DNA of 64,000 nt from contig NZ_JACHHN010000001.1 of assembly GCF_014202765.1 (NCBI RefSeq), positions 62,001 through 126,000 on the forward strand. Direction: 5' to 3'. Below the pieces are notes generated by a model. That model was not told where the DNA came from and made no database searches. It worked only from the letters and a program-made list of their open reading frames with translations. Below are positions 50,755-54,155 of this stretch, piece after piece. The stretch comes from Silvimonas terrae. GTDB taxonomy: Bacteria; Pseudomonadota; Gammaproteobacteria; Burkholderiales; Chitinibacteraceae. Position 1 is the first letter of the stretch. The number at the start of each line of letters is the position of its first letter. Both the position numbers and the translations under genes were made by a program.

Positions 50755-51447
50755 ATGAAATATCCATACGCCTGGTTGTTGTGTTGTCTGTTCCCCGTAC
50801 TGACTGCCTGTGCCAACCCCCCGGAACCCCAAGCCCAACCCAAAACCTGGTTCAGCCTGGGCTTGATTGCCTACAACTACACCAACCGCACCATAGATAC
50901 CTACTCCGTGAATGGGGCGGGGGGCGGCAATGTGTTTTTGAGTCGCTCCAGCGCAGGGGGGAGCAAGACCACTTGCTGTAGCGGCTTCAGCCTTAAAGAC
51001 CCCCTGCCCAGGCAATACCGTATTCAATGGGGTGGGGACGAATGCCGCTATACCCAAGTCTCCAGCTACGATGGTACGCGGCGCAATGATGCGCGCATCC
51101 TGTGGCGCGAACAAACAGTCTCCCTCAGCGCTGCCGACATCCACGTCCCGCCTGGTGAAGAACCGGCCTACTTCGAAACCCACTTCTACCCGGACGGTCA
51201 TGTGGAAGTGGCGGTGACCAGCCGCCCGTCTGCCCCGCGCCTGATCCTGCCGATTGACCCCGACACCGGCCGCCGCCCCGGTGTGCCCTATCTGCCGGAG
51301 CGTTGCACCCCCGCCCAGATTACCCAGCCCGGGTACCCGGAACTGTATGACTGGATTGTGCTGCCAGACGGCCTGATCGAGAACGACCCGGTATTCAATC
51401 ACCACAACACCCCCCCTGCGCCCGCCCTGCCGAGAAATGAACCATGA
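50755..51447 (+). CDS. DUF3304 lipoprotein, putative lipase immunity protein
   Basis: 230 aa. Lipoprotein signal with lipobox LTAC (Cys19), then the DUF3304 pattern: AYNYTNRTIDTYSVNGAGGGNV, TTCCSGFSLKDPLP, and YFETHFYPDGHVEVAV. DUF3304 lipoproteins commonly sit beside DUF2235 (Tle1-like) lipases, where they probably protect the producer in the periplasm (inference from gene pairing). GAGG lies 7 nt before the ATG, and the stop overlaps the lipase start (ATGA). Confidence 0.87.
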   Translation: MKYPYAWLLCCLFPVLTACANPPEPQAQPKTWFSLGLIAYNYTNRTIDTYSVNGAGGGNVFLSRSSAGGSKTTCCSGFSLKDPLPRQYRIQWGGDECRYTQVSSYDGTRRNDARILWREQTVSLSAADIHVPPGEEPAYFETHFYPDGHVEVAVTSRPSAPRLILPIDPDTGRRPGVPYLPERCTPAQITQPGYPELYDWIVLPDGLIENDPVFNHHNTPPAPALPRNEP

Positions 51448-53462
51448 CCAATACCACACCCAACGATGCCCTGGTGCTTAGCCAGACCGCCGCGGCCCTG
51501 CAGACCAGCGCCGATGATGCGGTGGCTAACCCGGCCCACGGCGCGCTGACCGCCCAGACCCAGACCCCGGTAGGGCCGGGCACGCCGTACAACCGCGAAG
51601 ACTTTGGCCTGTGCTGCCATGACGTGAAACTGGCCATCTTTTTTGATGGCACCGGCAACAATATGGATGCCGATCTCCCCAGCCGCAAACACAGCAACGT
51701 GGCCCGGTTATTTCGTGCTCATCCGCTCAACGACTCGGTGGCCGCCCACTTTGCAATTTACGTGGCCGGTCTGGGCACCTATATGGCAGACATTGGCGAC
51801 CCTGGTGGCAACCTGGGCAGCGGTTTTGCCCGGTATGGCGAGGCCCGGCTGGAATGGGCCTTTGCCGAAATCACCCGCGTGCTGACCGGGGGGGACCCCC
51901 AACGCGGGCAGGCCGGCTATGCCCCCTGGAAAATTCGCAAGATAGACCTGGCGCTGTTCGGCTTCTCCCGCGGGGCGACAGAGGCCCGCGCTTTTGCCAA
52001 CCTGTTGCAGCAGCGCAGCAAGGCCGATGAACACGGTAACCGCAGCCTGGATATCAAGGGCGCCCAGGTGCCCATCCGCATTTATTTCATGGGGTTGTTT
52101 GATACCGTGGCCTCGGTGGGCATCCCTGCCAGCGCCAGTGCCAACAGCAGCGGTCAGTCTCTGACCGGCTGGCTGGGCCACACCCTGGATCAGCGCCGGT
52201 TGAGTGGCGAGACCCCCACCCGGCACATGGGCAAGGCAGACAGTGGGCTGCCTGCTGAAACCGGCAACGGCCTGCAACGCATTGCCTGGGGGCAGGCCGC
52301 CGGGGCCAACCCGGTGCAGGGCACCTGGGGGGACGGCACCAACGGCCACGGCAGTTGGGTCCAGGACTATGGCCTGGCCATTCCGCCGCGCCCGTTTGTG
52401 GCGCAGTGCCTGCACCTGGTGGCGGCGCATGAAATCCGCAATTCCTTCCCGCTGGATTCAGTGCGGGTAGGGGCGGTGTACCCGGACAACTGTACCGAAG
52501 TGGTGTATCCGGGCTCGCACAGTGATGTGGGGGGCGGGTATCGGGCTGGAGAGCAGGGCAAGAGCCTTGATGATGGTTCGAAATTAAGCCAGATCACGCT
52601 GTATGCGATGTATCAGACAGCGGTCTCAGTTGGCGTGCCCCTGGAAAAGCTGGGTAGTCTTCATGACCTTACTGTTGAACGGGACTTTGTTATAGACAGC
52701 AAACTCATCCAGGACTTCAACCAATACTGCCAGCTCACCGGTCTTGCCAATGCCTCTGCCCCACTCGGACAACTGGTCAACACGCAGATGCAGCACTGGC
52801 AACACTGGCGGCTGTGGCGCATGGCCCACGGCCGGGACGCCCAACTGGCCGCGATTGCCCAGCAAGAAGCCCAGTACAAGGCCGAGCATGCGCGCATTCA
52901 GGCGGAACTGGATGCCGAAGAAAGCAACCCGGCACGGCTCAAGGCCGTTAACCGTTACCAGGACTGCCGGGACCGCGCTGCGCAACTGTGCTCGGGCCGG
53001 TCGCCCACGCATGAAGCGGTGGGCAAAGCCTGGGACGAGCTGGACGAGGCCGAACGTGAATGGCGTACCGCCAATGACCCGTGGAACCGCATCCACGCCC
53101 GGCTGGAAGCCCTGCCCAAATACGAAGGCCAGTTCTCTGCCGCCCTGCAAGTGTATGACCGGGCCCTGCTCAAAGACCTGGCCTACCTGACGGACCCCTA
53201 CAACGCGCCGACCGGCAAACCGCCCTTGCGCCCGCACTACGCCCGGCTGGTGGCCGTGGCAGACCTGGTTGCCCGGCAGCAGGGCCCCGCAGCGCAAATT
53301 GCCGACTTTTTTGACCGGTACGTGCATGACTCTCTGGCGGGTTTTGCGGGCGACGCCACGCTGCCTTCTGACCCGCGCATCCATTACCTGGGTGGAGACC
53401 TCAAGTCCCTCTTTGGCCAGCGCCAGCCAGACGTGGCGCAGACCCGTACCGCCATCGTATAA
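51444..53462 (+). CDS. DUF2235 (Tle1-like) phospholipase, putative type VI effector
   Basis: 672 aa. DUF2235 hydrolase with IFFDGTGNNMD (66-75), nucleophile S175 in GFSRGATEARAF, D361 in PGSHSDVGGGY, and H628 in YVHDSLAGF, a Ser-Asp-His triad of Tle1 type. Tle1 enzymes are phospholipases delivered into the periplasm of rivals by type VI secretion. There is no signal peptide and no PAAR or VgrG segment is fused. Residues about 470-570 are an inserted Glu/Arg-rich helical stretch. No VgrG or other T6SS gene occurs in the window, so delivery must rely on distant genes. Confidence 0.9.
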   Translation: MTNTTPNDALVLSQTAAALQTSADDAVANPAHGALTAQTQTPVGPGTPYNREDFGLCCHDVKLAIFFDGTGNNMDADLPSRKHSNVARLFRAHPLNDSVAAHFAIYVAGLGTYMADIGDPGGNLGSGFARYGEARLEWAFAEITRVLTGGDPQRGQAGYAPWKIRKIDLALFGFSRGATEARAFANLLQQRSKADEHGNRSLDIKGAQVPIRIYFMGLFDTVASVGIPASASANSSGQSLTGWLGHTLDQRRLSGETPTRHMGKADSGLPAETGNGLQRIAWGQAAGANPVQGTWGDGTNGHGSWVQDYGLAIPPRPFVAQCLHLVAAHEIRNSFPLDSVRVGAVYPDNCTEVVYPGSHSDVGGGYRAGEQGKSLDDGSKLSQITLYAMYQTAVSVGVPLEKLGSLHDLTVERDFVIDSKLIQDFNQYCQLTGLANASAPLGQLVNTQMQHWQHWRLWRMAHGRDAQLAAIAQQEAQYKAEHARIQAELDAEESNPARLKAVNRYQDCRDRAAQLCSGRSPTHEAVGKAWDELDEAEREWRTANDPWNRIHARLEALPKYEGQFSAALQVYDRALLKDLAYLTDPYNAPTGKPPLRPHYARLVAVADLVARQQGPAAQIADFFDRYVHDSLAGFAGDATLPSDPRIHYLGGDLKSLFGQRQPDVAQTRTAIV

Positions 53463-53485
53463 CCCCGCCCCTGGAGCCCTTTATC

Positions 53486-54155
53486 ATGCAATTGACCCCC
53501 CTTACCCTGCTGCTGGCCGCCGCGCTGAGCCAGAGCGCGTGTGCCACGCCTGCAGACACGCCCCCTCAACCCAAAACCTGGTTCAGCCTGGGCTTGATTG
53601 CCTACAACTACACCGACCGCTATATCGACACTTACTCTGTCAACGGCGCGGGGGGGGGGCAATGTTTATGTCAGCAACGCCCATGCCGGGGGCGGGGGCA
53701 CTACCTGTTGTACCCAGTTCGGAATCCATAACCCTTTACCCAAGCAATATAAGATTCAATGGGGAGGGGAGGGGTGTCGATATACGCAAATTGGGGATTA
53801 CACCGGCTGGCGGCATGATGACGTTCGTACATTATGGCGAGAGCAAACCGTCTCCCTCACAGCCTCCGACATCCACGTCCCCCCGGGTGAAGCGCCGGCC
53901 TACTTCGAAACCCACTTCTATCCGGATGGTCATGTCGAAGTGGCCGTCACCAGCCGCCCGTCTGCACCGCGGTTGATTTTACCGGTTGACCCGGCCACCG
54001 GGCGGCGCCCCGGCGTGCCGTATCTGCCGGACTGGTGTACCGCCGCCCAGATCAGCCAGCCGGGTTACCCGGAACTGTATGACTGGATTGTGCTGCCGGA
54101 TGGGCATATCGAGAACGACCCGGTGTTCCATCACCGGCAACCCCCGGCGGAATAA
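53486..54155 (+). pseudogene. Second DUF3304 gene, frameshifted at a G10 tract
   Basis: The ATG-started frame (53486-53731) encodes a signal peptide and AYNYTDRYIDTYSVNGAGGG, then shifts to nonsense. The frame continuing to 54155 carries the rest (NVYVSNAHAGGGGTTCC...GYPELYDWIVLPDGHIENDP). Removing one G from the ten-G run at 53650-53659 joins them into a protein of about 222 aa very like the upstream lipoprotein. So the gene is off as sequenced; it may be phase-variable, decayed, or affected by a homopolymer read error. Its lipobox (SQSAC) is weaker than in copy 1. Confidence 0.85.
53650..53659 (+). repeat. Ten-G homopolymer inside the second DUF3304 gene
   Basis: A run of ten G follows GGCGC. 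The matching place in the intact copy (about 50914-50930) is broken up by C residues. Nine G would restore the reading frame. Confidence 0.9.

Follow-up and report, generated by a model that had tools for sequence, protein, structure and literature searches.

The locus of interest lies in Silvimonas terrae, in the window, by which we mean the whole stretch of 64,000 nucleotides that was analyzed, and comprises copy A, a lipase gene, and copy B in this order, all on the plus strand. Copy A was an intact DUF3304 (PF11745) lipoprotein gene at 50755..51447 with an open frame of 230 aa, and its end overlapped the start of an intact, open gene for a Tle1-like lipase (51444..53462; 672 aa; PF09994; GFSRG motif). 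Copy B (53486..54155) was a second DUF3304 gene lying in two frames, as determined from the open reading frames, a genome search, Pfam, and alignment to copy A. It started with ATG at 53486 and its stop codon ended at 54155, and a GGAG at 53473..53476, 9 bases 5' of the ATG, was a plausible ribosome-binding site. The first frame (53486..53731) gave a truncated product of 81 aa with a putative signal peptide and the start of the domain. The other frame was open to 54155, giving 185 aa counted from a TTG at 53598 (53598..54155), and most of the DUF3304 domain lay there. The junction of the two frames was a run of G (53650..53659, plus strand), which encoded a glycine patch, NGxGGGN, and was the longest G/C run in the 64-kb window.

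The family assignments of the intact genes were determined by profile searches. Copy A scored 33 bits for PF11745, above the curated Pfam cut-off of 22, and every one of the 38 sequences in alignment A2, which include copy A, matched DUF3304. The lipase scored 96.2 bits for PF09994 and contained GxSxG, and its GFSRG was unchanged across the nine sequences of alignment A1. The adjacency of a DUF3304 gene to Tle1 holds at the Silvimonas terrae locus. For the NCBIfam family Tli1a_fam (NF053804), copy A scored 35.5 bits, below the threshold of 110, and an E. coli copy scored 200.5 in the same scan. A candidate lipoprotein signal was read by eye in both copies, as LTAC in copy A and as an atypical QSAC in copy B. 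The type VI secretion component searched for in the genome, TssK, gave one family match (C2:561713), VgrG and DUF4123 were absent among the three neighbor genes scanned, and the search for relatives of copy A among solved structures returned a match at chance level (E 0.83). Copy A is likely the cognate Tli1-type immunity gene, protecting against its partner, and we infer that this protection would make copy B dispensable.

The earlier note had taken copy B for a spare or alternative immunity-type lipoprotein gene beside the lipase, broken at a run of ten G, and both points held. In a whole-genome protein search with copy A that reads through stops, copy B was 66% identical to copy A. The run was exactly ten G long, both flanking frames were open, and neither the frames nor the alignment to copy A revealed any disruption of copy B besides the run. 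When scored alone, the piece in the second frame matched DUF3304 weakly, at 19.2 bits, under the cut-off of 22. The two copies were also compared at the codon level, with the pieces before and after the run taken apart and the run left out. Before the run, dN was 0.053 and dS was 0.635 (25 codons); after the run, dN was 0.171 and dS was 1.07 (161 codons), and third positions accounted for 71 of the 122 differences. Because dN was low relative to dS and the differences were biased toward third positions, selection acted on copy B at the protein level through most of its existence; the gene was under purifying selection before the break. Moreover, as past selection was combined with the absence of a second disruption, the break is young relative to the split of the two copies. 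The selection data say nothing about whether the break flips back, and we infer that the break exists in the living bacteria.

A block of 51 bases differed at one position between copy A (50839-50889) and copy B (53570-53620), with 45 bases identical in a row. Fifteen consecutive degenerate codons for the same amino acids were identical in the two copies (permutation p 0.027). This pattern is suggestive only, and gene conversion between the copies is possible.

As the run encodes part of the protein, its origin was examined in terms of amino acid conservation and codon use. Glycine 57 of copy A, located in the NGxGGGN patch, was near-invariant (≥90%) in the 38 sequences of alignment A2. Of the glycine codons, GGG made up 6 of 17 in copy A, 7 of 16 in the part of copy B after the run, and 616 of 3753 across the open frames surveyed. 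It follows that the run stems from a conserved glycine patch combined with GGG-rich codon use at the locus. Ten of the 23 G/C runs of at least 6 in the window were within the locus, which makes up 5.3% of the window (binomial 1e-7, for a region chosen post hoc). The 3.4-kb locus (50755-54155) was run-rich and high in GGG, and copy A had no match in three other Silvimonas genomes; run richness, GGG use, and absence from the sisters may mean that the locus was recently acquired. When copy A was used as a query against the named genome contigs, no match was obtained, and the lipase alignment as a query gave relatives.

Genome-wide, G/C runs of at least 9 were observed 6 times against approximately 18 expected, and runs of at least 10 were observed 4 times against approximately 4 expected. 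The expectation for 4.83 Mb was extrapolated from the 23 runs of at least 6 in the window, with a decay of approximately 0.22 per added base estimated from 183 kb, in which five of the nine stretches had been picked around long runs. Since a ten-G run somewhere in this genome is at chance frequency, the genome as a whole gave no indication of poly-G switching. The aspect that is not chance is that the run coincides with the frame break of a recognizable gene. Thus, of the slipped-strand switch proposed in the earlier note, the slippage-prone run and the dependence of the frame on its length stood, and a functional switch gained no direct backing; long runs were not in excess. A mutator background was considered as a further candidate and set aside; MutS, the one repair gene examined, had an open frame in the Silvimonas terrae genome.

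Besides copy B, another conserved gene was broken at a long G run. A gene of the glycine transporter family PF03458 lay in two frames at a nine-G run (C9:28282-28290), and it was open in three sister genomes, where the stretches fetched contained no G/C run of 7 or more. This raised the standing of read error, which had been named as an alternative to the switch. In the case of such an error, the G run would have been miscounted in sequencing or assembly, copy B would truly be open, and both immunity genes would be expressed. The main support comes from the fact that both family-recognized genes with runs of at least 9 (two of the six such runs) were out of frame at them, and it is because a second conserved gene is broken in this way that a miscount is a real rival. 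The lack of any other disruption in copy B and its strong past selection also agree with a miscount. However, a ten-C run in the same genome lay inside an uninterrupted frame of 436 residues, 29 of the 49 G/C runs of 6–8 in the 183 kb were inside frames of at least 200 codons that read through them, and the same kind of break was present in the records of many E. coli strains. The other three runs of at least 9 were one outside long frames and two in mechanical open reading frames, one of which crossed an N gap. Real slippage would give the same picture as a miscount at both genes, and overall we consider a miscount unlikely, albeit a rival to be taken seriously.

Whether copy B is typical of its family was evaluated with a survey of Tle1 loci. 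The contigs were searched with a profile of the lipase alignment, and the best 80 of 520 Tle1 relatives were examined. Among these 80 loci, at least one DUF3304 copy was present at 76, at least two copies were present at 39, and a copy downstream of the lipase was present at 15, where most lipase ends were approximate. In one relative (G272), whose lipase was 42% identical, DUF4123, one DUF3304 gene, and the lipase were in a row, and a second DUF3304 copy was absent from the stretch read. A search with alignment A2, considering the best 8 candidates per genome, gave matches in at least 4 of 369 genomes including Silvimonas terrae. In this genome, two more tandem DUF3304 copies were located at approximately 576.5–578.6 kb of C1, followed by what appeared to be the degraded C-terminal portion of a Tle1-like lipase. 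The likeness to a lipase was judged by eye, the frame had no Pfam match, and the arrangement resembles an orphan immunity island.

The integrity of the copies was determined in 83 stretches, namely, the 80 loci, the window stretch, and two further loci. These contained 159 DUF3304 copies, of which 141 were full, 6 were in two pieces, 2 were partial, and 10 were set aside because they were at contig ends or N gaps. A homopolymer of at least 8 was contained in 5 of the 6 two-piece copies and in 16 of the 141 full copies (Fisher p 2e-4), although the copies of an array are related, and the test therefore overstates certainty and serves as a guide only. A Cedecea copy was retained despite an adjoining N gap, whereas full copies were excluded if they had an N gap; without the Cedecea copy, 4 of 5 two-piece copies had a run of at least 8 (p 1e-3). 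The break sites were read by eye, and the N-gap junctions in L105 and in the Cedecea locus (L142) were not taken as breaks. In Aquitalea (L140), the break was at 8 G in the same glycine patch as in copy B, and in Pseudomonas putida (L123), it was at 8 G in the next glycine patch. In Enterobacter (L096) and Cedecea, the breaks were at 8 A and 9 A, respectively, in a lysine stretch. In the case of Paraburkholderia nodosa (L085), there was no homopolymer at the break. Homopolymer breaks were repeated in the DUF3304 family. Moreover, the broken copies of P. putida and Cedecea were the immediate upstream neighbors of the lipase and not distant spares, and a decayed copy in G675 had lost its N-terminus by a route other than a homopolymer break.

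The E. coli arrays, which were matched in 63 of 5426 genomes, allowed a comparison at the population level. Among 25 array-family records examined, the same first copy was found in 18. The G run of this copy, located in the second glycine patch, was 7 long in 16 of the 18 strains, with single strains at 8 and at 6. In the record annotations, 15 of these first copies were flagged as frameshifted, 2 were given as two short genes, and 1 as a shorter gene. Strain PM06121 had zero substitutions in the aligned array relative to FDAARGOS_144, A21, EC28, and ECO20, and apart from the alignment ends, the length of the G run, by one G, was the only difference. All indels among 17 strains were in homopolymers (T, G, C, and A runs; alignment ends excluded), and the one in the T run produced an additional frame change in some strains. 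Other strains had array members with the G run and no frameshift flag. As run lengths varied and a further frame change was present in some strains, the tract changes in E. coli, and the first copy looks, from these records, mostly decayed. Further disabling mutations in relatives, named in the earlier note as a sign against the switch, were found in part, as the extra frame change of some E. coli strains, which are distant relatives. In the third DUF3304 copy, SCU-124 and TUM13773 differed by paired changes in adjacent C and A runs, with lengthening in one strain and shortening in the other, and these may be assembly errors. The record pKP87-2 of E. coli CRE78, a circle of 1207 bases of which approximately half was one frameshifted tli1 gene, is possibly an assembly artefact.

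Several characterized systems resemble the Silvimonas locus. In P. aeruginosa, a single Tle1 is likewise accompanied by two DUF3304 lipoprotein genes, tli1a and tli1b (PA3291 and PA3292), of which the latter is frameshifted. According to one study (PMC13133936), the frameshift of tli1b in PAO1 was caused by one additional A within an A-rich stretch, the gene was judged a pseudogene, and Tli1b protein was undetected. The same study describes an AlphaFold 3 model in which most lipase contacts were on a loop of Tli1a (residues 69–92) and reports that P. aeruginosa Tli1 bound Tle1 but gave no neutralization in E. coli. Unlike in Silvimonas, where the G run lies in a glycine patch, the product is shortened, and the lipase precedes the broken copy, the change in the A-rich stretch of tli1b lengthened the protein. 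The Aux 5 cluster of V. cholerae, with TleV1, TliV1a, and TliV1b, similarly has two DUF3304 genes and one Tle1-family lipase. In the portion of PMC6691524 consulted, TliV1a rescued and the second DUF3304 protein gave no protection, so that only one was protective when tested. Both V. cholerae genes are upstream with a vestigial lipase between them, unlike in Silvimonas, and that portion of PMC6691524 mentions no frameshift. Tandem immunity paralogues with one pseudogene member, comparable to the Silvimonas pair, are also found in the esaG and tsaI arrays of the type VII system of S. aureus, where esaG copies recombine (available sections of PMC9484751). Those arrays belong to another secretion system and other families, and the text of PMC9484751 contains neither "frameshift" nor "homopolymer".

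The E. coli arrays of Tli1a, situated between DUF4123 and tle1, are like Silvimonas in that a DUF3304 copy is frameshifted at a G run in a glycine patch. However, the E. coli run is in a second, neighboring patch, by a CC pair, and the array is upstream of the lipase with additional homopolymer indels, whereas copy B is downstream with its run in the other patch. The phase-variable poly-G contingency genes of Neisseria and Campylobacter have coding G runs of slip-prone length. Copy B has such a run as well, but unlike these organisms, Silvimonas terrae has no genome-wide excess of long runs. In the literature on phase variation or slippage together with type VI secretion or immunity, which was surveyed in part, no phase-variable immunity gene was found, and the available portions of PMC4287609, PMC9263626, PMC5801462, and PMC13183296 reported none.

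Taken with the comparisons above, copy B is rather probably a redundant immunity paralogue that was inactivated by slippage within the birth-and-death turnover of Tli1 arrays. Copy B would have arisen by duplication or by the acquisition of a second immunity-effector pair, and polymerase slippage in the ten-G run of the conserved glycine patch would then have put it out of frame. Copy A would have remained intact and is likely to protect against the partner, so that the loss of copy B would be tolerated. Since slippage is reversible in principle, copy B may flip by accident, and phase variation of the gene is mechanically possible; nevertheless, redundant members of arrays in the family seem more usually to decay. 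Copy B most likely exemplifies a proneness of additional DUF3304 copies to homopolymer breakage. Several points are against loss by slippage, namely, the non-homopolymer break in P. nodosa, the decay by another route in G675, the 16 full copies that remain open despite runs of at least 8, and the broken copies of P. putida and Cedecea, which adjoin the lipase upstream and are no distant spares. In addition, the break of the PF03458 gene at a nine-G run fits assembly error at long G runs.

Selected switching was weighed against this slippage-driven loss. If copy B were a genuine contingency locus, slipped-strand switching of this second lipoprotein would itself be selected and would create subpopulations whose protection against kin lipases is broader or different. 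The run lies inside a gene that was under selection until recently, homopolymer breaks recur across the family, and in the aligned array of E. coli, such a run is the only difference between one strain and four others. However, long G runs are not in excess in the Silvimonas terrae genome, the E. coli first copies are mostly at one frameshifted length and some carry a further frame change, and the run is explained by the conserved glycine patch and GGG-rich codons; we therefore regard a selected switch as quite improbable. Slippage at the ten-G run during transcription or translation, which would give some full-length copy B so that the run tunes dosage instead of setting an off state, is very improbable, since, although the length and position of the run are permissive and the start context appears intact, a conserved signal was not observed, the breaks in relatives lie at different homopolymers and positions, and P. 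aeruginosa Tli1b was undetected as a protein in the part of PMC13133936 consulted.

Loss of copy B by slippage, as the preferred reading, bears on the question of why bacteria hold several similar immunity genes beside one toxin. Homopolymer breakage of extra copies would give a simple and testable route for their turnover. A broader proposal, which we hold to be improbable, is that built-in slippery sites, namely, the glycine patches with G runs and the lysine stretch with A runs, make extra DUF3304 copies contingency genes, with one copy constant and the others flickering. If such contingency arrays were real, clonal cells would differ in their sets of protection against kin lipases. Should the breaks prove reversible at a high rate, clones would be mixed in their immunity to kin attack.
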